Below are positions 22,501 to 63,662 of a DNA stretch of 64,000 nucleotides, in pieces. How positions within the stretch are numbered: the first letter of the stretch is position 1; every line of letters begins with the position of its first letter. The stretch is from a virus, in IMG/VR virus record IMGVR_UViG_3300033153_006701, positions 19,615 to 83,614 of that record. One strand, written 5' to 3'. The notes beneath the pieces are model-generated. The model worked only from the letters and a program-made list of their open reading frames with translations, had not been told where the DNA came from and searched no databases. The position numbers were made by a program, and so were the translations under genes.

Positions 22501-23450
22501 AGATAGAGACCATACTTTTTGAGCAGGCCTCCCATCATTCTGCCACCAGTAGATTCTGGTACTGCTAGTGTTGGCCTGATTCCTTTACCAAAGATCTTCT
22601 CAGTAGCCTTCTCAACAAAGCTTTGCCCTTTGGAGAAAGCAGTATCGAATGGAGGCATCTGTGCAGGGAGACGAAGGAGAGTATTAAAACGGGAAACCAT
22701 AGCGGTTCCCCAGGCGCTTGCATGTCTCCAGGCTGCCTGTCCTCTAGTGTGTCCACCTACTACTGTTGTGGGCATACCTCCTACGAGAGGAGGCTTGAAT
22801 TCTGGGAACCCTTTAAGAGGTTGCACCTTACCGTAGAAGACTTCTGGATTATCGACTGGGGCTCCAACTACACGCGCCCACGAAGAAGTTAGCTTAGCGC
22901 TAGCATCTGGAGCAGTTCTGATCCCAGAAGCAAAAGGCAGTGCGACTTCGTCACTCTGTCCCCAGAAGAGCTTCGAGTCTCTGAATGCTAGACCCTCAGA
23001 GAGGACACGGCGGTAGGTAGTCCCAACACCAGGGTAGTTGCGCTTACCTATTAGTGAAGTGTAGTACTCGGCAAGCTGTTTTGTCCCTGTTCCCTCGGCC
23101 GCAAACAACGATGGTGGCAGCTGGAAACCAGCTCGGGTTGATGTCTCAAACTGTGAGAGAAAAGGACCAGCAGAAAATGTACGAAAGATATGAGCAGGAG
23201 AGTACTCCTCGAGGACACGAGCTCCTCGAGCATACAGGTCCCAGACACGACCACCTTTCCAAGGAGCATACCCAAGAGCTACTACTCCTGCAACAGCTCC
23301 AGCCTTACCGAGCATGCCAGTTGCTGGATAGTCTTTCCTATAGAAATCTTCTTGCTGGTCGGCTGTCCACATAGGTGGAGATCGACGAGGATCTTGCAAA
23401 GAAGACCCATAATAAGGGCGACCATAACCTGGAGTATAATTATCTGGCAC
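19548..23450 (-). CDS. large virion protein in tape-measure slot (first of two)
   Basis: This 1300-residue protein starts with GTG at 23450 inside the end of the chaperone-like gene. The N-terminal 450 residues have several hydrophobic, Gly-rich stretches (AGAVAGVVALGYAP; GLYLPLAYMGYQTLDWM; GIIGGLAGALSIVPFLPGSLIP) that could be membrane segments. Residues ~750-1000 are Pro-, Tyr- and Trp-rich (IPNMMPGWLPGPG; GDPYIKIPEGELRLPG; HKYKILADVAPYTENYK), a sequence style I associate with very large structural proteins of large phages, without a known activity. The end is helical. By position it is a tape-measure candidate, but its hydrophobic and Pro-rich content fits an ejected or membrane-active protein at least as well. 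Confidence 0.65.
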   Translation of the reverse strand: MPDNYTPGYGRPYYGSSLQDPRRSPPMWTADQQEDFYRKDYPATGMLGKAGAVAGVVALGYAPWKGGRVWDLYARGARVLEEYSPAHIFRTFSAGPFLSQFETSTRAGFQLPPSLFAAEGTGTKQLAEYYTSLIGKRNYPGVGTTYRRVLSEGLAFRDSKLFWGQSDEVALPFASGIRTAPDASAKLTSSWARVVGAPVDNPEVFYGKVQPLKGFPEFKPPLVGGMPTTVVGGHTRGQAAWRHASAWGTAMVSRFNTLLRLPAQMPPFDTAFSKGQSFVEKATEKIFGKGIRPTLAVPESTGGRMMGGLLKKYGLYLPLAYMGYQTLDWMTSGSALTQGTILEEGTSVAAGTAITRANLLASRVAQATGLQDYRNWQEDLAPGSTDFSRLMAFPLMGAMFGTGAAYGLKVGYMAREQTRGATAVQARAAAEEWASEYGKQTRLAQWGRSLTQESGIYARPGKMGDLWRRIAKPVAEGTGELSFKLFRKVGPVKLAGIIGGLAGALSIVPFLPGSLIPEKSPEELEAIYSGAQEVPVRRGRWWEFGRSAFEGQRIAYFRPHWYARMRMDAKNEGIWGDDAEALSPIQRWFQSEFTYALEEKHYEERPYPVSALPLEDVPFVGPLLAATVGRAIKPERIMHEDDWLSSEGALVEPPRFGQRIATEIGETPGGVPTTPYDTTGIVGEQIYRLQEMIGLPGFTMMSMKEQMTGTPDWFDQTQRLESARRMFGFERSYWDLELGGLMGTTEAFRRLYPHRRRQIPLYNPIPNMMPGWLPGPGSKSPDFLHGDPYIKIPEGELRLPGRGYEARYPELEGVSPEDYPLIHKYKILADVAPYTENYKDHLRMVNRARKEESWTESQEMVFQQTQDQLQQKKTRVEFQEYKHLTSTGGLFGDKVYYDGEDSSNIIGAINRLKADKDGESGLFAKYFGGYWEALSHNAETALDQMTPISPGAKLVHQRTAIEHYERTQLYGTENAFWNHPFRDFMRPSFWLGAQAVGYEGVPSHIARRRELEDYFDVLKYVKYSRLSNIARENQDSAALREFESQKDQTLFGLNPYTRNFSAIFRALPRRDRDYFNAFAGAETEAERAKILEMVPRNEKALYVAQWKVMFADEVRRAKKDELLSGSELAEADVLIDKIYDEAATEGFPTSKDLNSAYLQSRSPGENYGDWYRKTHLLTQLSTLPGPDWVGWHPSVDLDDVKLKVIQNWGEDMHEYDLWPGRAQAMANKPYINNQAIEPIVGEGTLSRGEIHDRISGLLMTNRMEGDVFTRTVFDPAGTDSVQMQVYEQPNYNSLARRDWF

Positions 23451-24376
23451 TACTTAGTCTTGGCAGACCTGCGGCGTTTTCGAGACTTCTTGGGTTTTAC
23501 CTTACTAACCTTAGCTTCAAGCTCAGCTATCCTTGTCTGTTCTTCCTGGACCATGAGCAGATTTGCTTTCTTGTTTTCTTGTTTTTGTTCTTCCAGGGCT
23601 GCCAATCTCTCCTCTGGGCTCATGATCTTAACCTTCTCTCCTTTCTTCATCTGTTCTATGTATTCATGATAGACACTAGGAACATCATCCATTGATTGCT
23701 TCTCAAAGATTACAGCATCAACTTTATCATGCCCAGCCAACGCTGCCAGGTGCTCAACATGGTCCTTCTGGCCGATGATTGTCTGCTCCTCCTGAGGAGC
23801 TGCTGGCTGTTGCTCTCTCCAGGCTCTCTCGAGCTCTTCTGGAGGAGGTAGTTTTTCAACACGGGGCCTCTTCTGATCCTGCTGGTCAGTAAAGGAAATA
23901 GGCTGTTGGAGAACTCCTACCTGTATAAGCTTACGTTCAGCCTGAGCCAGCCTTGTCATGAAGGTGTCATAGTCCATAGCATAGACCTGATCAGGGGTAT
24001 ATGCCGGGAAAGCTTGAGTTATCAAAGCTGCCATGTCATGGACTACAGAGGTAGCGTCATGTCGACATACAACAAGGCGCTGTTCGATATCATCTAATGT
24101 GGATGGCCCAGAGTGAGCCATGATTGCCTGAGCAACTGCTGATACAGTCCCTGCTGGGAGCTTGCTCATGTTATCGACGAAGACTTGGTTGAGAACACAC
24201 TTCTTGAAGGCCTCATCCTCGAGCACAGCATGAGGATATGCCCGAAGAGCAAAGCGTGTTTGCAAGTCTAGGAACTCACCGATAGTTAGAGGGCGCCACG
24301 GAATAGTCTCCCCATCTGGGAATACAGAAGCGAAGACTGAATCGTGCTGCTCCCTTAGCAGGAACAGCTCTCTCAT
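23450..24376 (-). CDS. tail assembly chaperone-like protein (second of pair)
   Basis: This 308-residue protein has an N-terminal ~130-residue domain sharing the pattern EQHDSVFAS...GETIPWRPLTIGEFLDLQ with the preceding gene, so the two are related. The C-terminal half is charged and helical (probable coiled coil ~245-290) and ends in a very basic tail (KPKKSRKRRRSAKTK). Tail assembly chaperones between tube and tape-measure genes coat the tape measure before tube polymerisation, which fits the position. Its ATG overlaps the stop of the first chaperone (TAATG). It has its own start, so no programmed frameshift is needed. Confidence 0.65.
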   Translation of the reverse strand: MRELFLLREQHDSVFASVFPDGETIPWRPLTIGEFLDLQTRFALRAYPHAVLEDEAFKKCVLNQVFVDNMSKLPAGTVSAVAQAIMAHSGPSTLDDIEQRLVVCRHDATSVVHDMAALITQAFPAYTPDQVYAMDYDTFMTRLAQAERKLIQVGVLQQPISFTDQQDQKRPRVEKLPPPEELERAWREQQPAAPQEEQTIIGQKDHVEHLAALAGHDKVDAVIFEKQSMDDVPSVYHEYIEQMKKGEKVKIMSPEERLAALEEQKQENKKANLLMVQEEQTRIAELEAKVSKVKPKKSRKRRRSAKTK

Positions 24377-24816
24377 TACAACTTGATTACGATCTGAGAT
24401 GCAATCCGTGGATCCAAGAAGTTAGAGTTGACCATGATCTGCTCGTGGAGCAGAGTGATAGTCCCACCCTTCTGGGCCATAGCTATCATCCCTAGGGGAG
24501 AACCCCAAAGAACGCACCTGTGTACTACCTCAGCTTCTACAGCGAGCTGTGTCAGTTGCTGTTCAACAGCGGCAACACTAACCTCTGTGAACTCGGTACG
24601 GGTAACAGGGCGCCAGATAAACATCTCTGTATCGCTGGTGCCAGAGGCATAGACCGATCCGTGCTCTTGCTTCCATCCTTCCATGATCTCCTGGGTAGGA
24701 GCTCCTGGGAAAACAGCAAGGGCCTCGGCCAGATTCTTAATCTGCTCCTCGACTGCTTGTTCTTCCTGAGTCTGTTCTTGTTCTTCGACCTTAGCGGTTT
24801 CTTCTAGAGCTTCCAT
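24376..24816 (-). CDS. tail assembly chaperone-like protein (first of pair)
   Basis: I choose the ATG at 24816 (MEALEETAK) because AAAGGAGG lies five bases upstream; an in-frame TTG at 24843 has no comparable site. The resulting 146-residue protein has an acidic, Gln/Glu-rich helical N-terminus, then a domain with EHGSVYASG...FIWRPVTRTEFTEV, matching the next gene. It sits right after the tube paralogues, the classic place of tail chaperones such as lambda gpG. The chaperone role is inferred from position and from the pairing of two related proteins. Confidence 0.65.
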   Translation of the reverse strand: MEALEETAKVEEQEQTQEEQAVEEQIKNLAEALAVFPGAPTQEIMEGWKQEHGSVYASGTSDTEMFIWRPVTRTEFTEVSVAAVEQQLTQLAVEAEVVHRCVLWGSPLGMIAMAQKGGTITLLHEQIMVNSNFLDPRIASQIVIKL

Positions 24817-24846
24817 TGCTCCTCCTTTATGACTGGTCTCCAAGTG

Positions 24847-46258: not shown

Positions 46259-48511
46259 TTAACTCCTCATGTTGGGCTCAATATGCCCTTCGGCAATAGC
46301 CCAATCAATGAGGCTGTTTGCTTCTCCCTGCTTTCCGGAAAAGACCAGACGGTAGACGCGATTCTGGAATTTTGCCTTCTCTTCAGGAGAAAATCTCTTC
46401 TGATTGGTTGGAGTGTTTTGTTCCGCGTTGTCGGAAACCTCAAGGGGACTTTCTACTGTTTCAGTAGGTACCCTTGACATTCCATCCCCAAGCTTATCAG
46501 CTATCTTAGTCATGTCAACATCTCGCTCGAGTCTCTCGACATCGGCCGACAAGTCAGCATCAGATAGCTTAGTGAAGTCTGTCTCAGACACAGAACCTTC
46601 CTTGACTACCTTTAGAACACCAAAGAATCGTTCCTTCATCTTGCGACTATCGGCAACGAATTCGGTGTGGGCATCTTGGAGTGAGTCCATATCCTTGAAT
46701 AGACTATTGTACTCTTTGCGCAACGCATCTAGCTCATCACGGAGCTCACAGATAGTCTCCTCATTGCGAACGACCTCATCTGCGAGAGCCTGTTCACATG
46801 AAGGAGCAACTGCTAGCTCATTAGCAACTACTGCATTGGTAATGTTTTCCTTTCCTACTAGAGCCACAAGGGCAATAAGAACTGACTTGAGAGCTTCAAG
46901 ATCGTCACCCTCAAAAGGTGTTTCCTCAAGACCCGCCGCTATGTCCTTATCAATCCCAGCAATAGCAGACTGAACCTGTGCCAAAAGAGCTTTATGATCA
47001 ACTGGCTTAGCTTCGGTCGATGTTGCATCCTCTAGCTTCCAGCCATGAGCTCGACCTTTTCTTTCCACATTTCCCTTGAGAATGGAAAGATCAATTACTT
47101 CACTATGTCGATCAACGAACCTTAGAACTGCACGATAGTGAAACTCATCTGGAACAGGGAAGCTGCGATTTGGACCACAGAAAACAGATAGAGGAAAAGC
47201 TCCCCTCTGTTCTGCAGTAGCTACAAATTCAGCTTGCGCGCCGCTCGAGTCATCCTGAGACCCTTCGGTGTTGTCCCCAAGTTCTTCCTCGGAGACTTTA
47301 TCTATAGGAACCATTTCTCTAATGACCAGGTCATAGAGGCGTGGCTCATCTTCCTCGGTCAGCTTTTCGCTCAGGGTTGAAAAGACACGAGTAAGAAAAT
47401 CTGCATCGGTTTCGACGGCATCTTCAACTTCCTCGATCTGTTCGTCAGTCGCCTGAACTTCTTCATCAGCTGGCTTAGGAGTTTCTTCTTCTTCAACAGA
47501 ATCTTGGACCTGAGTCTGATCAACAACTTCTGCCTTCTTTTTCTTCCCGGCCATCTTTGTTTCCTCCTGCATAGTATCCTCATCATATTGAGGGAAGCTT
47601 AGCTGCACCTCATAGAGAGGACCACGAAAATCTTGTGCGATCTCGATCTTTTGTACTGAGTCATTGTAGTGTAGCTCCAAAACCTTAGAGTGTCTATCGG
47701 CTGGAGCGTTAACAAAGGAGTATTCATCATAGTCCAGGCGACCAGCAATAATGAAGCATTTAGCTCCATCGTACAAAGCTCCTGGCTGATGCTCACAAGG
47801 ACCTCCTTCTGTCCAATCCTGGCGGCAAACAGAACAGATAGCCTGATCTGTAGTAGCTCCGACAGAACCAGTCAAATAGCGGCCATCCATCAGTTTCTGA
47901 ATAGCCTCTGGGTCCACGACATCTCCGACCAACTGGATAAATCCAAGGCCAGAATAGCCCTCATCCTCTAGTAACACACTATCTCGGAACAAGGAAACCA
48001 CTGTGTCGACCTGCATCCCATGAGGCATGCGACCTTCACAGAAGTCCTTAATAAGGAGCTCGTTGATGACCCCCTTCTTTCTTCCGCTTCTGTCCTTAAC
48101 GACAATGCCCTTTACGAGGTCAAAATTGTCATGAAGAGCCCCAGACGTGTCGATATAGTCTGCCTTAACAATACGGCCGATGCTATCTTCTCGATCATTG
48201 TGATGGAGCAATAAGGGCTTGCCATAGTCTTCGGTAAAAGAGGGGGCGCCCTTTGACATTTTATCAGGCAAGTAAAAACCATTGTTGCGAGTAATGATAC
48301 CAGAGTGGGTTGCTGCGATACGGACTAGGAGACCTCGAGCAACAGATTGATCTTGTGCTCCAGGTTCCTGAGTTCCTAAGCCGCTTCCGTGTAGCTCCTC
48401 TCCTTCATTCGATGGCTTAAATGCGCCATAGTAATCGTCCTTAACCTTAATCAAGGCACGATTAGTGAGGGAAAAAGAAACAACGTCATTGAACTTTAAT
48501 TTGTTACCCAC
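46259..48511 (-). CDS. prohead protease / scaffold fusion with Cys zinc-binding site
   Basis: This 750-residue protein starts with GTG at 48511, eight bases after AAGGAG. The N-terminal ~300 residues look like a head-maturation protease region (GKPLLLHHNDREDSIGRIVKADYID; GRYLTGSVGATTDQAICSVC; YDEYSFVNAPADRHS), with a CxxC...CxH set near residue 225 likely to bind Zn. The central part is acidic and Gln/Glu-rich; residues ~580-690 form a coiled coil, and the C-terminus is helical, as expected of a scaffold. Fusion of protease and scaffold is known in other phages. The exact catalytic Ser/His pair cannot be assigned with confidence. Confidence 0.72.
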   Translation of the reverse strand: MGNKLKFNDVVSFSLTNRALIKVKDDYYGAFKPSNEGEELHGSGLGTQEPGAQDQSVARGLLVRIAATHSGIITRNNGFYLPDKMSKGAPSFTEDYGKPLLLHHNDREDSIGRIVKADYIDTSGALHDNFDLVKGIVVKDRSGRKKGVINELLIKDFCEGRMPHGMQVDTVVSLFRDSVLLEDEGYSGLGFIQLVGDVVDPEAIQKLMDGRYLTGSVGATTDQAICSVCRQDWTEGGPCEHQPGALYDGAKCFIIAGRLDYDEYSFVNAPADRHSKVLELHYNDSVQKIEIAQDFRGPLYEVQLSFPQYDEDTMQEETKMAGKKKKAEVVDQTQVQDSVEEEETPKPADEEVQATDEQIEEVEDAVETDADFLTRVFSTLSEKLTEEDEPRLYDLVIREMVPIDKVSEEELGDNTEGSQDDSSGAQAEFVATAEQRGAFPLSVFCGPNRSFPVPDEFHYRAVLRFVDRHSEVIDLSILKGNVERKGRAHGWKLEDATSTEAKPVDHKALLAQVQSAIAGIDKDIAAGLEETPFEGDDLEALKSVLIALVALVGKENITNAVVANELAVAPSCEQALADEVVRNEETICELRDELDALRKEYNSLFKDMDSLQDAHTEFVADSRKMKERFFGVLKVVKEGSVSETDFTKLSDADLSADVERLERDVDMTKIADKLGDGMSRVPTETVESPLEVSDNAEQNTPTNQKRFSPEEKAKFQNRVYRLVFSGKQGEANSLIDWAIAEGHIEPNMRS

Positions 48512-54153: not shown

Positions 54154-56193
54154 TTATATATGCTTTCGGCTAGGCCTTCTACTTCTTCTTGACCCAAACC
54201 CCAATCTTTTTCGTGTATTTGCTGAGTCAGGAATCCCTCGTGCACCAGGTTTTGGTTCGTCACGATTAAAGCCTGAGGGATCCCACAACTTAACAGAAGT
54301 CTCCCTAAGGTTACCAGCAGGCAGACCCTTGTCCGCAAACAAGGTCTGTTGCCGCATAGGCTCTGATCGAGCCATTGTTGGCCTCGTTCTATCCCTAGCT
54401 GTCTCATTCTTTTGCTTAAGATCTCCCTGGATGATAAGGTCTCCCTCCCCAGTTAGAGGAGTAAGCTTATCTCCAAAGTAACCAGAGAAAGCAACATCTG
54501 TTGCATACTGAGGCTGACCAAAAGGAGAAGACTCGAGGACAAAGGCTACCAGAGCACACATCACAGAGTCAAGGACATGGTCGCCAGCTGATTCGTCTGC
54601 TGCTGCATAAATTGGAACCCCGCTCTGAGAAATATTTTTGACAACATACCCAAGTAGCTGACGCTCAAAGAGATCATCCTTCTCCGGGAATATGAAGTCC
54701 CCAGACTCAAAACGACGCACAGTGCTCTCTACCAGGAACGACTTTGCTGGCTTCTTCACAGGCTGCTTAGTAAACAGGTCTCTTACCTCTATAGTGCTAC
54801 CAAACTTGTACTGCTTAACAATGTCCTTGAGCTTAGCATCTGGATGGTTTGGTCCCTTAGTCCCATCGATAGTTGAGTCAAAGCCATATTTGCGGAGGAT
54901 CTCAAACTGAGTTCCGCCAAAGCCTGAGTCAACATAGATAGCCATCGGATGCCAGATCCTATTCAGTTCAGCAACTTTCTGACAAGCAGCTAGCTGTGTC
55001 CAACCATCTCTCGAGACTGTGTGACGATCTACCAGCACAAATTTGTTTCTGCTGGGATCAAATCCCACAACTGCAATACAGCTACCATTCTTAGTATCGT
55101 TCCAGTCCACCCCAAAGGTATAGGTCCAGTGCTTGTAGTACTTGAACTCACCATACTGAAAACGTCTCTTAGCATTCTGTACATACGTGTTCTGGAAGAC
55201 ACCCTCTTCTTGCTCTCCAAACTCAGCAAGGACTTCATGCTGATACCCAATCTCTGTGTAGGCTGTACGGAACTGCCTTTCTGTCTCGTCTGTGAACATC
55301 GGGTTAATAGAAGATGGATAGTAGAACTCGCGATAGGTCTTATCGAAGCAAGTGTGATAGAAGCGCTCTCTCCTTCCAGAAGGAGTAGAGCTCATCCACA
55401 CGTGAGCCTTTGGGAAGTTGGTAGTGATAGCCATCGCAGAATCCAAGTCTCCAGATGACAGATAGTCAGCCTCATCAAAGATCAACATGTGAGCATGCTG
55501 ACCACGGATGTTCTGCGCGTCACCACCAGACTTCGTTCCTGCGGTAAAACCACGAACCTCAGATTTGTTGTGTAGCTTGATACTATAGTTAGGGGCCTTG
55601 ACTGAACGCTGAATAGAGCTAGCAGTCAAAGGCGATGAAGAGATAAGGTCGTATATCCGATTGAAGACAACCTCAATCTGTGTCTGCATTGGGGCTACCA
55701 AACAAACTTCAAATCCTTCGTTCTCTGCACAGTTCGGCTGAGTGAACATATGGTAAAGGATTGAGACAACAATCGCCTCAGTCTTTCCTGCCTGACGACC
55801 AATGCGGAAGATCTTGTACTTAGCTGAGCATCTAAGCATCTCTGCCTGATAGGGACGGTGGTAGCGAGACTTCCCTAAGATAGAGGCACCAGGGTTATCG
55901 TCCACCCACTCTTGGTACTCGGCTGGATTCTTTCTCTTCCAAATAGCTCCATCAGGATCGAGACAATGCCAATCCAAGACTTGTATCGCCCACTCAACAG
56001 GATCGAGAACAGACAGAGCAGTCAGCTGCTCTTCGTCATTCATTCCACTGAATAGAGATAGCTGCCTTCTGTGATCAGTGATTCCGTCACAACGGATGTC
56101 AAATGATTCGCCCGCCTCTAGCTTGTGCTTCCCTTTGTATCCTCGGATACAGGTAATACAGTCGTTACTGCACTGTTGTAGATCTAACGCCAT
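54154..56193 (-). CDS. terminase large subunit (packaging ATPase-nuclease)
   Basis: This 679-residue protein has the complete large-terminase layout. Walker A GRQAGKTE lies near residues 131-138, Walker B HMLIFDEADYL near 235-242, and coupling motif HVWMSSTPSGRRERFY follows. A nuclease domain begins with TFGVDWNDTKNGS (~360-370) and has later acidic residues (AIYVDSGFG; DESAGDHVLDSVMCALVAF). The N-terminus carries a Cys group (CSNDCITC, later IRC) that may bind a metal. The enzyme cuts concatemeric DNA and pumps it through the portal. There is no clear Shine-Dalgarno site; the ATG follows the previous stop by three bases, suggesting coupling. Confidence 0.93.
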   Translation of the reverse strand: MALDLQQCSNDCITCIRGYKGKHKLEAGESFDIRCDGITDHRRQLSLFSGMNDEEQLTALSVLDPVEWAIQVLDWHCLDPDGAIWKRKNPAEYQEWVDDNPGASILGKSRYHRPYQAEMLRCSAKYKIFRIGRQAGKTEAIVVSILYHMFTQPNCAENEGFEVCLVAPMQTQIEVVFNRIYDLISSSPLTASSIQRSVKAPNYSIKLHNKSEVRGFTAGTKSGGDAQNIRGQHAHMLIFDEADYLSSGDLDSAMAITTNFPKAHVWMSSTPSGRRERFYHTCFDKTYREFYYPSSINPMFTDETERQFRTAYTEIGYQHEVLAEFGEQEEGVFQNTYVQNAKRRFQYGEFKYYKHWTYTFGVDWNDTKNGSCIAVVGFDPSRNKFVLVDRHTVSRDGWTQLAACQKVAELNRIWHPMAIYVDSGFGGTQFEILRKYGFDSTIDGTKGPNHPDAKLKDIVKQYKFGSTIEVRDLFTKQPVKKPAKSFLVESTVRRFESGDFIFPEKDDLFERQLLGYVVKNISQSGVPIYAAADESAGDHVLDSVMCALVAFVLESSPFGQPQYATDVAFSGYFGDKLTPLTGEGDLIIQGDLKQKNETARDRTRPTMARSEPMRQQTLFADKGLPAGNLRETSVKLWDPSGFNRDEPKPGARGIPDSANTRKRLGFGSRRSRRPSRKHI

Positions 56194-56196
56194 TAA

Positions 56197-56604
56197 TTAT
56201 AGGCCCATCGCCGTAAAGGCATTGATCCCTTCGTTGGTTACTATTCTCCTACCTGAGCGGAAGTTCCCTCGTGCATGTGAGAACATAGAGCGGCCAGCAA
56301 GACCAGCACTTCTTCCGACGCCAAGACCTCGAGCTCGTGAGTGAGCAAAACGTCTAGCTCCAAAGCCTCCATAATATCCTACACCTGCTCCCATAGCTGC
56401 GCCGCCAAGAACACTCGTGTCACTAGACATCATACCCCATCCAGCTCCTGCTCCTGCTCCGATAATAGCTCGCCTACCATGGGGACTAGCCCAAGCACCG
56501 CGTGCTGCATTATTCAAATAGCCACCTCGAGCCACAGAGGCGCTTGCTCGTCCCCAAAGACGATCAGCACCGGCTCGTCCAGCTGCCCAAGCTCCTCCAA
56601 TCAT
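56197..56604 (-). CDS. small glycine-zipper protein
   Basis: I take the ATG at 56604, five bases after AGGAGG, rather than the GTG directly before it. The 135-residue product is rich in Gly, Ala and Arg: RGAWASPHGRRAIIGAGAGAGWGMMSSD, then GGAAMGAGVGYYGGFGARRF. The spacing of small residues suggests paired glycine-zipper helices that may enter membranes. The same unit occurs in the 382-residue protein two genes upstream. A role in DNA ejection or membrane passage is a guess from composition. The C-terminal half is basic (ARGLGVGRSAGLAGRSMF). Confidence 0.62.
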   Translation of the reverse strand: MIGGAWAAGRAGADRLWGRASASVARGGYLNNAARGAWASPHGRRAIIGAGAGAGWGMMSSDTSVLGGAAMGAGVGYYGGFGARRFAHSRARGLGVGRSAGLAGRSMFSHARGNFRSGRRIVTNEGINAFTAMGL

Positions 56605-56606
56605 CA

Positions 56607-57527
56607 CTACCTCCTGTAGGCCCCGTCATGCATTAGGATACCTTCGTTACCCATAGCCATTCTACCGTTGATGTGCGTATTGTTCAACGCCATCAAACTT
56701 CTCTGTCTAGTTGTCGCCACTGTCCCGAATGGGTCTACAATAGGAGCTCCCATCTCTAGGCTCTTCATTTGCTTACCATACTCTTGAGCTGCTTCTCCAA
56801 ACTGATAGAAGCCATAGGCTCCACCAGCAGCGATAGCAAGAGGAGCAAGAACACCTGCACCAATACCAGCTTTAGCTAGAAGAGCAATACCGGCGCGCAT
56901 AGCTCCCCACTCTGCTCCAAACCTAACCCCTGCTCCAACCGCTCCAGTAACTCCACCTTCCTGATAGCCAGTGTACATAGCATGGGCAGCAAACCCAACA
57001 CCAAGAGCATGCCCTGCTATACCCATGCCTCCCATCTTTCCACCAGCACCCTTGAACGCCGCCCTTACCCCTCTCTCTTTGATAAAGTGTCCAGCTGCAC
57101 GGAATTGACCAGCTTTCTGAGCAGCTCCCCTTAGGGCTTGACCTCTAAGACCAGCTGTCCTAGCTCCAGTAGAGATTTGACCATGGATGGAGTGGCTTCT
57201 TGTCTGAAAGCTTCCCATTCCCCAACTAGGAGCATGGCCTTGACCAAACATCCTGCCATATCTTCCAGCTGCCGATGTTCCCATACCTAAGAAGCCAGCA
57301 GAACTATACTGTCCAGTACGACTGAACATGGTTCCTTTACCAGATCCGAGTAGCCCCTGACCACGTGGGTCTTGCATGAAACCAAACGACTCAGCAAAGC
57401 CGACGCCCATTTCCTTTCCTATGGTGGTTCCGCCAGCAAAGCTAAGAGCTTGTGATCCAGCACGATGAGCACTACCTGCCCATGTCCCCGCTACTGCTCT
57501 AAACTTAGCTGCTTGATCAGAAGCCAT
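56607..57527 (-). CDS. glycine-zipper virion protein (306 aa)
   Basis: This 306-residue protein has Gly/Ala-rich helices in residues ~150-245 (GKMGGMGIAGHALGVGFAAHAMYTGYQEGG; GVLAPLAIAAGGAYGFYQFGEAAQEYGKQ). The N-terminal part is Gly-, Ser- and Arg-rich and low in hydrophobic residues. It ends RQRSLMALNNTHINGRMAMGNEG. It is the middle of three adjacent glycine-rich genes that lead up to the terminase, all linked by overlapping or touching stops and starts. It is probably a virion-interior or membrane-active protein. No family is recognised. Confidence 0.62.
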   Translation of the reverse strand: MASDQAAKFRAVAGTWAGSAHRAGSQALSFAGGTTIGKEMGVGFAESFGFMQDPRGQGLLGSGKGTMFSRTGQYSSAGFLGMGTSAAGRYGRMFGQGHAPSWGMGSFQTRSHSIHGQISTGARTAGLRGQALRGAAQKAGQFRAAGHFIKERGVRAAFKGAGGKMGGMGIAGHALGVGFAAHAMYTGYQEGGVTGAVGAGVRFGAEWGAMRAGIALLAKAGIGAGVLAPLAIAAGGAYGFYQFGEAAQEYGKQMKSLEMGAPIVDPFGTVATTRQRSLMALNNTHINGRMAMGNEGILMHDGAYRR

Positions 57528-58675
57528 TAGCCATGCCTCCCTCTACTGAGTCCTTGGACTAGTCCATCGGTACTCTCTCTAAAGGATCGTTGCTGAGGCC
57601 CCATCATTACAGGAGCTGGCCCAACCTGACCTGTTGGAGCATAGTTTCCTCGAGACATGAAGTCAGTCGCTGCCATCTGTGCATCATAGTTAGTATTCAC
57701 CTGAGCTCCTTGTAAGGTAGGGGAGTCTGTGCCGCCTGAGGCAGAAAGCATACTGTACCCACCGTAGGCAGCTCCAGCTCCGCCTACTGTCATAAAGGGA
57801 TGCTTGAGAGCAAAGCCAGCAGCTGTTCCAGCTGCATTAACGGCTCCAGCTCCGCCTCGAGCGGCAGAGCCAAGAATATTCGGTGCATTCATCACAGCCC
57901 CGGGAAGAAGTCTACCAGGATCATCCCAGGCTTTTTGTGCCCAGCCGCCAATCCCCTTCACTCCTTTCCAGGCTAACTTCCCTGCCCCTACGGCCCCACC
58001 AGCGGTCCCCTTGAAGGCTATGCCAGCAGCATTAGCCAATGGGCTCTGGGCAAAGACGTTAGCATTGAACCGAGCAGCACCAGGGGATATAGGAGTTCCG
58101 GCCTGAGTTCGGAGAAGCCCAAGAGGCTCCTCTCCTACTGAAGGCTTTCTGAAACGCCCAGTGATAAACGACCGTGACCGGCTGTTGGTATGACTGGGAA
58201 ATGTGGCGGCTTTGCTAAAGCGTCCAGTGGTAAACACCCGAGCTCCTCTCTCAGGGACTTCGCTTCTGAGCATCGTAAGGTTAGGAGAGTCGAATGGAGC
58301 CATGACTACATCGTCAGTAACACTTGACGAGCTAAATGAGGCAGCTTCTTGTACTGGACGAAGAGAACTCTTTGTCTTCCAAGGCAAGGCTAAAGCTCTG
58401 CGTTGGCCAACAGCTCGATTTACCGCTAATCCAGCTCCTGCCATACCGACGCCGAGACCAATAGCTCCACCAGCAATCGCTCCGCGAATACCAGACTGAG
58501 CTCGTAAGTTGAAGCTGTCATAATCGCTAGAGGCAAACCCGTAAGCACCTCCGACGCCTGCCCCGATTAGAGGAGAAGCTCCTCCTCTCAATAGCATTGA
58601 GCCGGCGGTACTCCATCCACTTTTAATGGCCCCTGACTTAGTCAGAGCCTTTAATACTGCTGGTAGTAATGGCAT
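57527..58675 (-). CDS. glycine-zipper virion protein (382 aa)
   Basis: This 382-residue protein begins with a helical Gly-rich module (GASPLIGAGVGGAYGFASSDYDSFN; GAIAGGAIGLGVGMAGAGLAV, residues ~30-90) matching the 135-residue protein's pattern. A polar middle follows with two related TFPSHT/TTGRF- or ITGRF-like segments. A second Gly/Ala-rich region (residues ~230-310) follows, and a tail ending FRESTDGLVQGLSRGRHG. Tails of that kind appear on large virion proteins of some myoviruses. A membrane-active or structural role is inferred from composition only. Confidence 0.62.
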   Translation of the reverse strand: MPLLPAVLKALTKSGAIKSGWSTAGSMLLRGGASPLIGAGVGGAYGFASSDYDSFNLRAQSGIRGAIAGGAIGLGVGMAGAGLAVNRAVGQRRALALPWKTKSSLRPVQEAASFSSSSVTDDVVMAPFDSPNLTMLRSEVPERGARVFTTGRFSKAATFPSHTNSRSRSFITGRFRKPSVGEEPLGLLRTQAGTPISPGAARFNANVFAQSPLANAAGIAFKGTAGGAVGAGKLAWKGVKGIGGWAQKAWDDPGRLLPGAVMNAPNILGSAARGGAGAVNAAGTAAGFALKHPFMTVGGAGAAYGGYSMLSASGGTDSPTLQGAQVNTNYDAQMAATDFMSRGNYAPTGQVGPAPVMMGPQQRSFRESTDGLVQGLSRGRHG

Positions 58676-58709: not shown

Positions 58710-61700
58710 TTAGAAGTTCGTCTTAGTACGTTTACGACCAGGTCTCTTTCCTTGTTGCCAAGCATGGTTCTTTCCACCCTTAGAATTTCTTGACAAAGCT
58801 TGTTGACCATTTTTTTGACCAATCGCCATTGCCTCTTTTTTTCTTACCTTAGCATAAGAAGATAAAGCATCTTGAAGAGCATCAAGAGTGCCGGTCGAAG
58901 GTCTATGAGTAGTCTGAGCTGCTAAGCCAAAGTCAATTAGCATCATCTCATTTCCCTTTATCATGATATTAGCTACACTTGGATCAAAATGTCGAACAAC
59001 TTGAGTCGTTCCTTCTTCTGAAGAGGCCATCCACATTTGATTAAATTCCTTTTCAAGGAATTCCAAAGCTTTCTCTGTTTCTGCCCCAGGCTTGAGTGGC
59101 CTTCCTGCAGATTCCATAAAAAAGCCCTCACCTCCCTTTTCTAACCCAAAAAATTCTGGGACGTTCTTCCCTTTTCGTTCAAGGAAAGCAGCCTTCTGCA
59201 TAGCCCCCTCATGAGGAGCTCCCAGTCCACCAAACCTCTGCATCGTTTTAACTAAATCTTCACCAAGTTCTTCTTGGGCTCCTAAAAGTTCTCCAAACGG
59301 TCCCTTTTTTGCCATCATATCTTCAAGACTCAGCTTATCCATAAGCGTTTGTAAACGATCTTGAAAAATAGGCCCACCAGGTTGAATAATGTCATCAGAA
59401 GCAATTTTTTGTACCTTCCCTATATGCTTGTAGATACCTGACTTACCTGTTCCTCCCTCTATTGCTTTAAAAACTTTTCCAAAACCTCCACTTCCTAATT
59501 GTTTTCCTACAAACCATTTGGCTCCTTCTGCTTCTACAACTCGAGCAGATTCATCTCCCAAAACCCTAGCTGCAGAAGCAACATTTTCTACAGACATCCC
59601 CATCTTGAGGGCACGACGGATCCATGGAGACTCGAATGGGATATCTAGAGTCTTTCGACTAGCCTTAGCGGCAATACCTTCAGAAAGACCTTTGACAGTG
59701 TTTTCTGTTTGAAAACCTCGTATTCTCGGAAGCCACTTCTGTTCAATGGAGTTAACTATTTTGCGTGTTCTACGTGCATACTGTCCTATGCCTTCTGCGC
59801 TTTCGTAGGCGAAAAACAAAGAACGATCTATCTCTTGGCCTAATTCTTGAGCAGTTGGCTCAACAGGAACTATTTTACTAGATAGTTCTCTTACATCTGC
59901 TTTCCAGTTGTTGACATAATAAGTAGCTTCCATTGAAAGCGAAGGACGTTGAGGCGGACGGTGATCAGGTCGCCAAAACAGAGGATTCATTGAGCCACCG
60001 GATTCTTTATACTCCCGAAGGGATTTACGATATTCCCAAAGTTTGGAAGCTGCTTTAGATCGCAGAGGCGCAACGTCGTTCAATCGATATTGAACTTGTT
60101 CAAGTCCTTTAGCAAACTTCATATTGTTCTGTAGACGAGCGCGAGCAATACTTGCTTTTTGCTCTGCTCGATATAAGGGGTCTTTTGATTCTGCGATGAT
60201 TCGTTCGATGTTGTCTAGTTCATCAAACCTAAACTTCTTTACTTCTTCAAAATTCCCTGTCTTTGCCGCTATGAACATTTCGTCGATAATAGGATCAACC
60301 CCTAGATGTGATCCAAAACTTGGTGAAACAGATTTAGCAACTTGTGCTCTATTCTCTAAAACATGTTTTCCAACAATTTTATTAGCAAGCTGATACTCAG
60401 AAATTTCATGGGCAATAAATGATGAACGCAAAGGTTCCTGAATAGACTCAGGATCAATATTTATTTGGAACAGTTTTTTCAAAGACTCTGGATTCTTAAT
60501 AGCCGACACGCTTGGAACACCTGGTTCAACTGGGACAGTTTTCAAAAATGAAGAAACACGTTTTTCCACCGATGCCTTAGACATCTTCATAAACTGGGCC
60601 ATCCCACCGAAAAGAACGTCAATTGCCCCACTACCAAAGGCTGTCAGAGCTCGACGCTTCTTCCAGGCAATACCCTCGTGCCGTAATCCTTCTACCTTCA
60701 GGTAGTTATCATCGCGGCCGGAGAACTTACTGGAGTTTGGCCCAAACTTCCTTGGTCCGTGGGTCCTCTTCAGAGCTCTACCAATCTGCTTAGCCTTCTT
60801 CCTCTCCCATACACTCAGTGGTTGCTGCTTAGCTCCCATCTCAGCAAGGAAGGAACCATAGGCACCCAGGTTAAGGTTGGCCCCGAGCTTATCTAGCCTG
60901 GTAAGGGTGTTATGGGTAGTGACCCTTCCAATCTCCCTGCTTGCTATCTTCGCTGCCTGATAGCGGGAGTAGCTCCACATCCCTGTTCCAGAAGCAACGG
61001 CCTGACCTTCTGCTTGTTCAGCAGCCCGGCGGGAGACTACATCTGTTCTAGAAGGACCAAAGGGGAGGGCCGAGACAGCACCTTTACGAAGGAGCTCGAG
61101 GTTGATATTCATTCCCTCTTCGCCAACAAGTGCGCCCAAGTAGCGGCCATAGGTCTTCTGGTTCTCTGCGACTACGAGGGAGAGTTCATCCTGCTCTTGC
61201 AGTATCGACTTCAGTTGCCAAGCGGCAGCCTCGCCGTGAGGTTGATTCTGGAATATGCGGAATGGAGCAAGTGGGTCGTTTGCATGGCCTGCTACCTCAG
61301 GGGCATCAATCCCTGCCAGACGAATGACTACCTCCTCCCCCATTCCTACTGTAGACTTGAGCCAAGGTACGACACCCCTACGCCTCAGCATAATGGTATC
61401 TGCGTCCTCTACATCGATAGCGAATCTGGAGAGCCGTACAGCCTTCATTCCATCATGGAGGTCATTCATCCCCTCGATGGTCTGTAGATCGACTGAGAAG
61501 AGATCTGAAGGCCCTAGGACACCAATTTTCGCCTGGGCAATGGCCGAGCGTTCCTTGATGGTCTGCTGGACCTCGGCACGAGCACTTTCTGAATCCCAGA
61601 CATCTGCTCGAAACTCGAGAATCCGAGAATCGATCGGGATGCCCATCAAAGAAGCCGGAAGACCTCGGTATCCAGAGCCAAAATCGGTAATAGCAGGACG

Positions 61701-62573
61701 TCGTTCACCGGCCATACCGGTATGAGGCATCGCCTCGAGTGTATTGTAGTCGTCGTCACTTCCAGAGAAGAGGAGATTTACCCCTAGGACAGCGGCTGCG
61801 CCAGCTATCCCTAGTCTGCCCCACCTCGACCTTCCTAGTGCCTTAGCCTCTTCGAGTATCGTTGTACCCGTCTGACCTCGTTCTATAGAAGTGGCAACTC
61901 TCGACGAAATTGCCTTTGGAGCAAATTGGGACTGATACTCCAGGTACTCAGAGTAGATATCCCCTATTCCTGCAGCACTAGCTCTCTTGGCAAAGTGTTC
62001 TGCAAAGAAAGGGTTATGGACAGTACTGGCTGCTAGCTTGTTGGCTAGGGCTTCCTTGTTCCATCTAGAGATAAAGGATGGCCCGCTCTCGGACACCATT
62101 ACATGTTCCAACCCTGCGGGATCCAGGAACTCAGGGATGAACCTGGCATACAGTCCAGGGTCTGCTTGGAGGGCTGCCAGGTTAGGGATACCGGCTGGAA
62201 CTTGTCCCCTATAGAGGGTAGCAAGGACTACGTTTTTCGCGGAACCGCTTAATCGGAAACTGCGATCCCATACTGACTTAGCTGCTTGCTCAGCTGTCTG
62301 GCCAAGGTCTTTGTATCCGCGTACTGCTTGAGAGTACTTGAAGGCAGATTCCGCCAGATCCGGGTCAACTAGTTCCCTATAGATGTGAGCGCCGCGAGAC
62401 AACTCTGCCGCCCACTCTGCAGTGAGGGTTGCCTTTATTGGCTGTCTCCATTTTGTTTCCCAGTATTGTTGTGCGGAGAGTCCTCTCAGTTGAGGACGTT
62501 GCTGTACGGATGGGCGTTTCTTGGAAGAATAGTCCTTATGAGTAAAGGGAACGTCTTTTGCAGAAGGTGGCAT
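58710..62573 (-). CDS. virion-module protein fusing SNase nuclease and protein-kinase-like domains
   Basis: This 1287-residue protein has four visible parts. Residues ~1-270 are helical and polar. A hydrophobic stretch lies near residue 270 (GIAGAAAVLGVNLLFSG). A staphylococcal-nuclease (thermonuclease) domain spans ~385-510: EDADTI, RLAGIDAPE and TYGRYLG give the Asp, Arg/Asp/Glu and Arg catalytic set. A kinase-like domain spans ~1020-1230: GSGGFGKVFKA loop, HFDPSVANIMI catalytic loop with Asp-to-Asn spacing of five, and LIDFGLA. The last ~50 residues are basic and Gln-rich. DNA coding residues beyond ~650 is clearly AT-richer than the first half. The ATG overlaps the previous stop. Substrates are unknown; it could degrade host DNA or phosphorylate host or virion proteins after entry. 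Confidence 0.8.
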   Translation of the reverse strand: MPPSAKDVPFTHKDYSSKKRPSVQQRPQLRGLSAQQYWETKWRQPIKATLTAEWAAELSRGAHIYRELVDPDLAESAFKYSQAVRGYKDLGQTAEQAAKSVWDRSFRLSGSAKNVVLATLYRGQVPAGIPNLAALQADPGLYARFIPEFLDPAGLEHVMVSESGPSFISRWNKEALANKLAASTVHNPFFAEHFAKRASAAGIGDIYSEYLEYQSQFAPKAISSRVATSIERGQTGTTILEEAKALGRSRWGRLGIAGAAAVLGVNLLFSGSDDDYNTLEAMPHTGMAGERRPAITDFGSGYRGLPASLMGIPIDSRILEFRADVWDSESARAEVQQTIKERSAIAQAKIGVLGPSDLFSVDLQTIEGMNDLHDGMKAVRLSRFAIDVEDADTIMLRRRGVVPWLKSTVGMGEEVVIRLAGIDAPEVAGHANDPLAPFRIFQNQPHGEAAAWQLKSILQEQDELSLVVAENQKTYGRYLGALVGEEGMNINLELLRKGAVSALPFGPSRTDVVSRRAAEQAEGQAVASGTGMWSYSRYQAAKIASREIGRVTTHNTLTRLDKLGANLNLGAYGSFLAEMGAKQQPLSVWERKKAKQIGRALKRTHGPRKFGPNSSKFSGRDDNYLKVEGLRHEGIAWKKRRALTAFGSGAIDVLFGGMAQFMKMSKASVEKRVSSFLKTVPVEPGVPSVSAIKNPESLKKLFQINIDPESIQEPLRSSFIAHEISEYQLANKIVGKHVLENRAQVAKSVSPSFGSHLGVDPIIDEMFIAAKTGNFEEVKKFRFDELDNIERIIAESKDPLYRAEQKASIARARLQNNMKFAKGLEQVQYRLNDVAPLRSKAASKLWEYRKSLREYKESGGSMNPLFWRPDHRPPQRPSLSMEATYYVNNWKADVRELSSKIVPVEPTAQELGQEIDRSLFFAYESAEGIGQYARRTRKIVNSIEQKWLPRIRGFQTENTVKGLSEGIAAKASRKTLDIPFESPWIRRALKMGMSVENVASAARVLGDESARVVEAEGAKWFVGKQLGSGGFGKVFKAIEGGTGKSGIYKHIGKVQKIASDDIIQPGGPIFQDRLQTLMDKLSLEDMMAKKGPFGELLGAQEELGEDLVKTMQRFGGLGAPHEGAMQKAAFLERKGKNVPEFFGLEKGGEGFFMESAGRPLKPGAETEKALEFLEKEFNQMWMASSEEGTTQVVRHFDPSVANIMIKGNEMMLIDFGLAAQTTHRPSTGTLDALQDALSSYAKVRKKEAMAIGQKNGQQALSRNSKGGKNHAWQQGKRPGRKRTKTNF

Positions 62574-63418
62574 TAAGCATCATTGTCACCCTCTTCGAAC
62601 TCTGCGTCAATCACGTCCTGGGGAGAATGAAGGGCAGAGGAGTCAGTGGGCGACTCACTAGAAAAGTTCTGGATGCTTCTAGAGAGGTCATCGAGCTTAG
62701 CTCGCATATTGGACATTTTGGAAGAAGGGTCCTGCTCGATCTTCATTCGGAGAGCAGCTTCCTTCTTGTATTTTTCTTGGCGATCACCAACCATGAGTTT
62801 GATGATTTTAGATCTGCGCGAGACTAGACGATCTTTCATGTCCATAAATGGAGAGACATCTTTTTGAACTAGAGGAGTTCCGTCGTTAGAGACACCTACG
62901 ATCTTGTCGGTGACGAGCTCCGCGTTTTCAGAGCGAGCTAGATTCATGTTCAGTCTCATGAGATGAATTTCAATCTCAGCAAGTTCAGAGATATACGCGA
63001 CTTCGGTAAAATTATTCGGATCAACTTCGTACTCGTCAAAGTAACGAACAATCCATTCCTTCATCAGTTGAACTTCGATTAAGCATTGTTTTCCAAGAGG
63101 ATGCTTGCTGATCTCAAAGAGAGGACAGCGATCTTTGAAGGGACACTTGGCTCCTCCACAATACATGGGAACCATTGCAGTGGAACCAGTAGAGAGCTTC
63201 TGTAAGTGAGTATGGATACGGCGCGCTTCTGCTGGTTCCAACTTGATGTCGTCATAGTTATCAAGATTGTGCCCGAGGAAGCGAAAGAAGTTGCTGCGAG
63301 TAAGCTTTCCAGATTCAGTGACAGCAGTGCCACCAAGAGAAACAAGTCCTTTGGGTTCGCGGTTCTCAGAAGTAAAGCGCGATTCCTGGTCGATTTCTTC
63401 GCGATCTTTTTTATCCAC
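62573..63418 (-). CDS. Cys-cluster protein, possible small terminase subunit
   Basis: I place the start at a GTG at 63418 (GTG GAT AAA AAA), five to six bases after GAAGG. The longer frame to 63622 overlaps the whole small gene before it and codes an unlikely N-terminus. The 281-residue product has a four-Cys set near residues 87-111 (YCGGAKCPFKDRCPLF, then GKQC) that may hold Zn or an Fe-S cluster. The rest is helical with a probable coiled coil and an acidic end (DVIDAEFEEGDNDA). The position ahead of the large terminase suggests a packaging role, such as the DNA-recognition subunit, but no DNA-binding motif is certain. Confidence 0.6.
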   Translation of the reverse strand: MDKKDREEIDQESRFTSENREPKGLVSLGGTAVTESGKLTRSNFFRFLGHNLDNYDDIKLEPAEARRIHTHLQKLSTGSTAMVPMYCGGAKCPFKDRCPLFEISKHPLGKQCLIEVQLMKEWIVRYFDEYEVDPNNFTEVAYISELAEIEIHLMRLNMNLARSENAELVTDKIVGVSNDGTPLVQKDVSPFMDMKDRLVSRRSKIIKLMVGDRQEKYKKEAALRMKIEQDPSSKMSNMRAKLDDLSRSIQNFSSESPTDSSALHSPQDVIDAEFEEGDNDA

Positions 63419-63662
63419 GTTTACCTTCAATGATGTCAATTGTTTCAGAGAGCTGGCGGACAGAGTCGCGAAGCTTCTCATAGTCTTCGGACAAGAAGAG
63501 GTCCATGCTCTTTGTATAGTAGCGGCAGTCGGTTCCAGAGAAAGCAAGAAAGTGAGCAGTACGCTCGACACCAGAGTCCGAAACCTGCTTGTAGAATGTC
63601 TCGAGTAATCTACGAAGATCATCGAGCTCGTTTATTAGCATCTGTCCACTAGTCAGGGCCAT
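63411..63662 (-). CDS. small helical protein, first gene of the leftward operon
   Basis: This 83-residue protein (INELDDLRRLLETFYKQVSDSG; DYEKLRDSVRQLSETIDIIEGKRG) is mainly helical. Its start has GAAAGGA six bases upstream, right after a promoter with the same orientation. It overlaps the next gene by eight bases, so the two are translated together. No family is recognised. It may be a regulator or packaging accessory because it is the first product of the morphogenesis operon. Confidence 0.65.
   Translation of the reverse strand: MALTSGQMLINELDDLRRLLETFYKQVSDSGVERTAHFLAFSGTDCRYYTKSMDLFLSEDYEKLRDSVRQLSETIDIIEGKRG

Follow-up and report, generated by a model that had tools for sequence, protein, structure and literature searches.

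Polyvalent proteins of phages (Iyer et al. 2017, PMC5512222) combine several enzyme domains of unlike activity in one large polypeptide of variable architecture, are encoded among late genes and have been proposed to be delivered with the DNA; some have kinase domains with a reduced C-lobe, in a clade with an insert between the catalytic His and Asp. In the 0305phi8-36 lineage, SNase domains are found in large baseplate hub proteins with M23 or gp27-like parts (the BtI1 hub, PMC2147016, and ME3_37), and it was remarked in 2007 that it is not obvious why a hub protein of this lineage carries a staphylococcal nuclease domain (PMC2147016). Small or atypical kinases of the Bud32, ABC1, RIO and APH types have a catalytic loop without Lys and a compact C-lobe.

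Here we describe a 1287-residue protein (P0001) of a large bacterial virus, encoded close to the DNA-packaging genes, in which an SNase domain and a kinase-like domain are joined in one frame. The window analysed is a 64,000-nucleotide stretch of the IMG/VR record IMGVR_UViG_3300033153_006701 (positions 19,615 to 83,614). A first-pass annotation, made from the sequence alone, had proposed that this nuclease–kinase fusion is a packaged effector that may act on host DNA and host proteins at entry. The fusion itself is confirmed by our analysis. The interpretation is supported in part, and was too narrow: the main point is not one fusion but a shuffled family with a shared linker motif, in which related viruses keep the gene slot but exchange the nucleases and kinases within it.

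Results

Gene organization and phage lineage

The gene lies on the minus strand as one open frame of 1287 codons without internal stops, its first base overlapping the end of the upstream gene at 62573 (Table 1). The neighborhood is that of late genes, with TerL (phrog_2, E 2.4e-33) and portal (phrog_9232, E 1.9e-49) both recognized. TerL is 30–36% identical to those of MTATph1, ME3, and KLEB27-3, and a pair of adjacent paralogues (23450–24376 and 24376–24843, E 2e-6) precedes the tape-measure slot, as expected of the two-gene tail chaperonin of 0305phi8-36-like phages, the chaperonin role being assigned by position. A scan for promoters and terminators gave 14 promoter-like sites against 7.1 (sd 2.9) expected and 8 terminator-like sites against 6.9, and was not used further. 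In what follows, L numbers denote viral contigs and, where the context requires, the modular proteins that they encode.

Table 1. Features of the modular gene and its neighbors (window coordinates, all minus strand).
Coordinates	Feature	Residues	Basis
58710..62573	Whole gene (P0001), stop codon included	1287 aa	Open reading frame
61815..62417	N-terminal region shared with several members (e.g., L029, L107, L113, L031)	about 53–253	BLAST
61758..61814	Hydrophobic, Gly/Ala-rich stretch	254–272	Kyte-Doolittle scan, not a trained TM predictor
61668..61769	34-residue motif, copy 1	269–302	Motif search; low pLDDT
60726..61667	SNase module (Pfam SNase 417–534)	303–616	Pfam, alignment, predicted structure
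60627..60725	34-residue motif, copy 2	617–649	Motif search
60159..60626	Unassigned module, partial matches in L027, L101, L102, L106, L107	about 650–805	BLAST; weak
59622..59702	Degenerate third motif copy, just before the kinase-like domain	958–984	11.2 bits, best shuffle 5.2; aligned with an intact copy of L074
58812..59600	Kinase-like domain	about 992–1254	Sequence profiles
58713..58811	Basic C-terminal tail with GGKNH signature		Sequence, signature search
62573..63622	Upstream gene	349 aa	Homologue directly before the modular gene in 21 of 28 members
56197..58675	Three Gly/Ala-rich genes between this gene and TerL	382, 306, 136 aa	Homologue of the 306-aa gene follows in 25 of 28 members
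54154..56193	Terminase large subunit (TerL)	679 aa	phrog_2

The SNase module

PF00565 matches with an E value of 2.2e-12 and 47.8 bits, well over the curated cut-off of 21. The AlphaFold model of residues 250–655 is confident over about 301–610, whereas the motif copies in the same model have low confidence, and the predicted fold, an OB-fold, matches staphylococcal nuclease with a target-normalized TM-score of about 0.8. D390, D392, R418, D423, E426, and R477 are invariant in all 11 rows of the SNase-module alignment, P0001 included, in agreement with the first-pass annotation, which had found every main catalytic position in place.

The kinase-like domain

The evidence for the kinase is thinner and rests on sequence alone. 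PF00069 matches in two stretches with an E value of 6.3e-6 and 26.2 bits, below the curated cut-off of 31.7; the Bud32 model gives E 5.3e-5, far below that model's own cut-off, and a four-row family profile hits twitchin kinase at 2.8e-6. Weak matches to the defence kinases PD-T4-6 and mad6 (E 5e-4 to 8e-3) are not convincing. The AlphaFold model of the kinase region, built from a four-row alignment, has a mean pLDDT of 41 and is unusable.

All of the expected elements could nevertheless be placed in P0001: the Gly loop at 1026–1032, K1049, a probable helix-C E1122 (a likely, not a certain, match), H1195-x-D1197, N1202, and D1214-F-G. Two points of the first-pass annotation need correction here. 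It had not found an obvious invariant Lys, but this residue is present (K1049, in GIYKH), 22 residues after G1027, which is the spacing in PKA (G50–K72), and by eye a Lys stands at the like place in the three closest kinases. It had also taken the Ser two residues after the catalytic Asp as leaving activity open; in the eight other members that matched a catalytic-loop pattern this residue is H, N, Q, or A, never K, and the Ser is no sign of inactivity here. Other features do speak against activity: K1049 and E1122 are 73 residues apart, an unusual insert, only about 70 residues follow DFG, and in two of the three closest relatives (L022 and L027) Gln replaces the catalytic-loop Asn.

A family of modular proteins in a conserved slot

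Close homologues of P0001 were not found directly. Peptide patterns gave no match in the viral contigs and six matches, none confirmed, in the genome contigs; the kinase part gave one match, not confirmed, in the viral contigs; and tblastn found none in named phages, as was also the case for a second member (L129). In plasmids, 31 records matched the SNase part only, the listed ones at 30–33%. Members appeared only through relatives of TerL and then through the motif.

In divergent 0305phi8-36-like viral contigs, the slot between the conserved upstream gene and the terminase holds a protein of 724–2418 aa in which a 34-residue motif (FSGkDDxYNtIEGLxHxGxAxxxRxxxTDFGSGw), present in 1–6 copies, separates modules. 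The motif is found in 29 of the 32 records searched, with all copies in one frame of one protein per record, and was not detected in named phages or cellular genomes by the searches used; a literature search with motif strings gave one irrelevant hit. Copies within a protein are hardly more alike (64%, 41 pairs) than copies between proteins (62%, 1499 pairs), giving no sign of recent internal duplication. A glutamate-specific prohead-protease site in the motif (TIE|G) was considered, but is weakened because the E is replaced in 15 of 77 copies; 46259–48511 is a candidate for the phage's own prohead protease by position only. Most members end in a short basic signature, seen in 17 of 25 against 2.27 in shuffles. 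The tails of P0001 and of the next gene (382 aa) look alike by eye, but a profile of 17 such tails scored no family tail above the best shuffles, and the idea was dropped.

Of 28 nonredundant members, 11 have an SNase domain, about 12 a DEDD-type exonuclease, 5 a Cas4-like exonuclease, and 13 a kinase-like domain; 6 have both SNase and kinase-like domains, and 7 have no recognized nuclease. Weak hits to Ntox37 in L035 and to DnaJ in L114 (E about 1e-3, below cut-off) are not relied on. Three members lie in another slot, after sheath/tube/chaperonin-like genes. On a 23-row tree of the upstream gene, the presence of SNase and kinase-like domains requires at least 5 and 8 changes of state, respectively, counted without a shuffled-label control. 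A conflict between the SNase and TerL trees was not supported (p-AU 0.28 and 0.22 on the SNase data for the two alternative groups), although this test is weak, as three TerL rows were short fragments (90, 92, and 149 aa). Of three near-identical pairs considered for dN/dS, two contained N bases that prevented an estimate and the third was identical.

These comparisons bear on whether the fusion could be an assembly or sequencing artefact joining two genes. A contig with identical TerL (L004) stops two bases before the next gene, beside this one, so that the join to TerL in this virus rests on one record. However, the frame is open throughout, L027 matches P0001 over residues 305–787 and 951–1218 in the same order, L035, L108, L104, and L129 also carry both domain types, and others have the same slot. 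We therefore regard an artefact as very improbable.

Discussion

On balance, and with only moderate confidence, we favor the view that P0001 is a lineage-specific, domain-shuffled “polyvalent” effector, belonging to a family of modular multi-enzyme proteins seen so far only in 0305phi8-36-like viral contigs. In this view each member is a string of globular enzyme modules joined by flexible segments that carry the repeated motif, the recognizable modules here being an SNase-type nuclease and a compact atypical kinase. The protein would most likely be loaded into the particle during assembly and enter the host with the DNA, where the nuclease would attack nucleic acid and the kinase phosphorylate host proteins, as proposed for polyvalent proteins; the motif would be the constant part that lets different enzymes be swapped in and still be loaded, threaded, or cut apart. 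Our analysis establishes the single reading frame, the two enzyme domains with their catalytic residues (the kinase-like one with the reservations given above), the motif copies at module borders, and the turnover of modules in a fixed late-gene slot, whereas catalysis, presence in virions, delivery, targets, and the role of the motif are inferred, the phage being uncultured. The multi-enzyme make-up, the late-gene slot, and the precedent of SNase domains in virion hub proteins of relatives all fit a packaged effector. On the other hand, delivering an unspecific nuclease with one's own DNA needs a control to which we cannot point. The three members in another slot, the seven members without a recognized nuclease, the kinase score below the Pfam cut-off with its unusable model, and the absence of catalogued polyvalent-type Pfam domains from all 28 members also count against this view.

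Other roles are possible, if less likely. The protein could act late inside the infected cell, without being delivered, as a packaging or maturation accessory that processes DNA for the terminase, with regulatory phosphorylation. Its position between the upstream gene and TerL, and the occurrence of nucleases of three folds in this slot, would suit this reading, but enzyme content varies widely while TerL and neighbors persist, seven of the 28 members have no recognized nuclease, and a packaging role would predict a constant activity; we consider it unlikely. About equally doubtful is a mainly structural or tail-lumen protein, whose enzyme domains are decorations used at the cell envelope or are degenerate. 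The SNase domains in hub proteins of this lineage and the three members after sheath/tube/chaperonin-like genes speak for it, while the invariant SNase catalytic residues, the fact that the enzymes act on nucleic acids and proteins and not on cell wall, and the lack of any recognized shared structural domain speak against it. Least likely of these is an early or middle enzyme made in the cell against host defence, rivals, or host DNA and lying in the late region by chance: its only support is the unconvincing similarity to defence kinases, and the conserved late-gene slot and the overlapping start with the upstream gene argue against it.

A bolder and tentative possibility is that the motif, with the C-terminal signature, is a dedicated loading or processing code, so that an enzyme inserted between motif copies becomes virion cargo. 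This would give the lineage an exchangeable injected toolkit (three nuclease folds, several kinases) reshuffled against host defences, a phage counterpart of polymorphic-toxin cassettes. If the protein is virion cargo, the slot is a catalogue of what a phage lineage finds worth delivering with its DNA, namely nucleases and kinases in changing combinations, and it would also give a context for the 2007 remark on the hub nuclease. The motif is a search key for further unannotated effectors, and a candidate for a cargo or cleavage signal.

Comparison with known systems

The first-pass annotation knew of no described fusion of SNase and kinase in a structural operon, and our full-text searches likewise found none, although the general class of polyvalent proteins is published. 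The SNase-bearing hub proteins share with P0001 an SNase domain in a large protein of the virion region of related phages, but they have no kinase match, whereas the SNase domain here is in a separate gene near TerL. For MTATph1, a genome search gave an SNase match over the cut-off, but hmmscan of the annotated 2225-aa protein did not list it.

The best viral structure match of the modelled SNase region, in a library of predicted structures, is A0A6J5NQ80, a 1342-aa protein of an uncultured Caudovirales phage (E 4e-20, 404 columns, query TM-score 0.55, rmsd 12.5 over the alignment). It is named “SNase-like” for that domain only and, judged from the structure match alone, is probably a member of the family. 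The kinase-like domain resembles the Bud32, ABC1, RIO, and APH types in its catalytic loop without Lys and its compact C-lobe, with weak profile hits, and differs in its canonical-looking Gly loop, the long insert before the probable helix-C Glu, and its fusion to a nuclease.

With respect to polyvalent proteins, no LPD, ART, MuF, zincin, or PolyVal-named family was found in Pfam scans of the 28 members (E ≤ 1 for P0001 and ≤ 0.1 for the rest), and the kinase-like domain, although it has a short C-lobe, has no insert in H1195-x-D1197. The words SNase and staphylococcal nuclease do not occur in the main text of PMC5512222, and we saw no repeated 34-residue motif in the text examined. P0001 nevertheless shares with the polyvalent proteins two domains of disparate predicted activity in one polypeptide, a variable architecture among members of its family, and a place among the late genes of a phage.

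The nuclease and kinase-like parts of P0001

The observation of the first-pass annotation, an SNase domain and a kinase-like domain in one 1287-residue protein (P0001), held: the ORF is real, lies on the minus strand and has no internal stop (the coordinates of all features are collected in the table). Pfam finds SNase with an E-value of 2.2e-12, well over its cut-off, whereas the protein-kinase model matches in two stretches with an E-value of 6.3e-6 but only 26.2 bits, under its cut-off of 31.7. The AlphaFold model of residues 250-655, built on an 11-row alignment, has a mean pLDDT of 77, and the best PDB matches found with Foldseek are staphylococcal nuclease, at a target TM-score of about 0.8. 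D390, D392, R418, D423, E426 and R477, equivalent to the catalytic residues of staphylococcal nuclease, are invariant in 11 of 11 rows.

Independent support for the kinase-like part comes from a Bud32 model (E 5.3e-5) and from a profile of four family kinases that hits twitchin and other solved kinases (best E 2.8e-6). The first-pass annotation had found the invariant Lys not obvious; however, K1049 in GIYKH lies 22 residues after G1027 of the Gly loop, which is the spacing in PKA, and by eye the three nearest family kinases (those of members L074, L022 and L027; L numbers denote viral records and the family members they encode) have a Lys at the like place. E1122 is the likely helix-C Glu, but it is 73 residues from K1049, an unusually long stretch. 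The catalytic loop reads H-F-D-P-S-V-A-N, and in the eight other members that matched the pattern the residue two after Asp is H, N, Q or A, never K, as in Bud32, RIO, ABC1 and APH kinases. The Ser at this position, which the annotation had counted among its doubts, is therefore no argument against activity. Against activity, the catalytic-loop Asn is Gln in L022 and L027, only about 70 residues follow DFG, so that the C-lobe is short, and the structure model, built on four rows, failed, with a mean pLDDT of 41.

Coordinates of the features (nucleotides of the window or of the record named; residues of the encoded protein)
Feature	Sequence	Nucleotides	Strand	Residues
Modular gene, 1287 codons	window (P0001)	58710-62573	minus	
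Motif, copy 1	P0001			269-302
Confident part of the AlphaFold model	P0001			about 301-610
SNase match (Pfam)	P0001			417-534
Motif, copy 2	P0001			617-649
Motif, degenerate third copy, before the kinase	P0001			958-984
Bud32 model match	P0001			1193-1246
Conserved upstream gene, 349 aa	window	62573-63622		
Conserved upstream gene	L039	6763-7584		
Break of the L004 contig	window	58676		
Next gene downstream	window	57527-58675		
Modular family member (nucleotides) with intein-splicing and LAGLIDADG matches (residues)	L111	4688-11920		about 1290-1740
ORF with actin/MreB-like N-terminus, 332 aa	L005 (record left of the window)	about 5753-6751		

Genomic context

The window is the right-hand 64 kb of an 83.6-kb viral record. 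TerL and the portal are recognised, and a 1975-aa protein with an M23 peptidase domain is hub-like by comparison with Acinetobacter phage ME3. TerL is 30-36% identical to those of Moorella phage MTATph1, ME3 and Bacillus phage KLEB27-3; many ME3 genes are annotated as like those of Bacillus phage 0305phi8-36, and two adjacent paralogous genes sit at the tail-chaperonin place, which the 0305phi8-36 comparison describes as a two-gene chaperonin (PMC2147016). The 2329-aa hub protein of ME3 carries SNase and M23, and SNase has been reported in the BtI1 hub, with the remark that the reason is not obvious (PMC2147016). For MTATph1, a genome search found SNase over the cut-off, but hmmscan of the annotated protein did not list it. 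No kinase match at E <= 1 was found in the four named phage records or in the record of L004 (IMGVR_UViG_3300033148_004740). The latter, a second contig with identical TerL, stops two bases before the 382-aa gene, beside the modular gene; a branching assembly caused by several alleles of the modular gene would explain this.

In L029, L031, L034, L036, L037, L038, L039, L074, L108, L110 and L129, the TerL frames are about 1000-1450 aa long instead of about 680, probably because of inserts such as inteins, as mentioned for BtI1 TerL (PMC2147016). In L111, intein-splicing (below cut-off) and LAGLIDADG (over cut-off) matches lie inside a modular family member itself. In the record left of the window, the ORF with an actin/MreB-like N-terminus, assigned by eye only, lies near glycosyltransferase-like ORFs.

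A family joined by one motif

A search with a TerL alignment found 306 confirmed places, and in the nearer ones among the best 80 of these a long ORF upstream of TerL aligns with P0001 in pieces. The pieces are joined by a motif seen twice in P0001 and, in degenerate form, a third time before the kinase, this copy scoring 11.2 bits against a best of 5.2 among the 1814 hits reported from 2000 shuffles. A motif alignment found 33 loci in the viral collection. In the genome collection (84,980 species), 37 stretches matched the one pattern used and none was confirmed, and tblastn with one motif copy found nothing in 50,697 named phage records, although both searches are of limited power for so short a query. 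Thirty-two distinct motif proteins resulted, of which four were dropped (L034, L102 and L037 as near-duplicates and L033 as a fragment), leaving 28, one of which (L106) is cut at its start. Of 32 records chosen and searched whole, 29 contain the motif, and in each all copies lie in one open frame; the three without it are that of L004, which ends beside the gene, that of L020, which begins shortly before TerL, and that of L039.

In 78 copies from the 28 proteins, the best kept positions are S2 (56 of 56), D5 (58 of 63), D6 (60 of 63), N9 (64 of 69), I11 (65 of 75), G13 (72 of 77), H16 (69 of 78), G18 (76 of 78), R24 (71 of 77), T28 (68 of 76), F30 (76 of 78), G31 (77 of 78), S32 (78 of 78) and an aromatic end (68 of 68). 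In the AlphaFold model both copies have a pLDDT of about 30-42 while the SNase module between them is confident, so the motif behaves as a linker-borne short motif rather than a domain.

The slot is largely constant. The homologue of the upstream gene sits directly before the modular gene in 21 of 28 members, with two small ORFs between in 2; a further 2 begin at a contig edge, and 3 (L111, L121 and L127) lie instead after genes that by eye match the window's sheath, tube and chaperonin-like genes. The homologue of the 306-aa downstream gene follows in 25 of 28. In both the window and L039, the upstream gene has a Cys pattern (C-x4-C-x5-C and a later C); by position it is a candidate small terminase subunit or adaptor, although no Pfam or PHROG family reached significance.

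Most members also share a C-terminal signature: [GPA]G-x(1,2)-H occurs in the last 50 residues of 17 of 25 terminase-slot members, against 2.27 of 25 in shuffles and 15 of 581 internal 50-mers, and in 0 of 3 members in the other slot. As the pattern was made after looking, and the L021 match lies at another place than the rest, 16 is the fairer count. L039, which has no motif and was not used for the pattern, has in this slot a 300-aa protein with a Cas4-like module only, ending in GGRRHASMGYS. Seventeen of the next genes downstream share a C-terminal tail like ST.GLVQGLHRGRH.

Module turnover

SNase scores over the Pfam cut-off in 11 of 28 members (P0001, L019, L021, L027, L035, L101, L104, L108, L115, L127 and L129). 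A kinase-like domain is found in 10 of 28 by Pfam at E <= 1e-3 (P0001, L029, L035, L038, L099, L104, L106, L108, L124 and L129) and in 3 more by BLAST to the P0001 kinase (L022, L027 and L074), while L110, L114 and L115 are weaker. SNase and kinase occur together in 6 of 28 (P0001, L027, L035, L104, L108 and L129), with SNase first in five and last in L104.

Two further nuclease types occur in the family. A DEDD-type exonuclease near the N-terminus was assigned in 9 members by a D-x-E pattern, in L021 and L101 by eye and in L129 by Pfam, whereas L108, with a weak hit, was not counted; a profile of seven N-termini hits solved exonucleases (best E 3.5e-8, named exodeoxyribonuclease III, with oligoribonuclease and DnaQ weaker). 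A Cas4-like PD-(D/E)XK exonuclease module is found in 5 of 28 (L111, L112, L120, L124 and L130), at N-terminal, middle or C-terminal places, with invariant G-x3-H, D, D-x-K and Q-x3-Y. All 6 aligned rows match phrog_1990, "Cas4-domain exonuclease", at E <= 0.1 (best 9.7e-12), although the best PDB hit is weak (4ic1, E 0.003) and Pfam found nothing in the three proteins tried. Seven of 28 members have no recognised nuclease.

On a 23-row tree of the upstream gene, the fewest changes are 5 for SNase, 8 for kinase and 6 for DEDD exonuclease, and the six double carriers fall at four places by eye; only 7 of 20 inner branches are well supported, and the counts are without a shuffled control. As an example, L022 has 57% TerL identity to this virus and no SNase, whereas L108 has 35% and an SNase module that is 48% identical.

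Comparison with published systems

Full-text searches found no description of the fusion or of the motif, with most subscription papers and all bioRxiv preprints outside their coverage. SNase and ejection do not occur in an account of phage protein mosaicism (PMC10684548), nor do SNase and protein kinase in PMC7824862. A predicted viral structure named only "SNase-like", A0A6J5NQ80, is probably a member of the family.

A multi-enzyme late protein with a constant slot, linker motif and (mostly) tail but changing enzymes is what one expects of cargo, in which the constant parts would deal with the particle and the variable parts with the host. The suggestion in the first-pass annotation of a packaged effector is supported in part: the architecture and the setting were observed, while activity, packaging, delivery and targets are inferred. 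Polyvalent proteins are the published class of this kind (PMC5512222). P0001 has the architecture and the setting of that class; however, it shows none of that paper's catalogued domains in the Pfam scans, and its kinase lacks their His-Asp insert. We therefore believe that P0001 most likely works like a polyvalent protein, and we class it as a variant that differs from those published in its domains and in its kinase.
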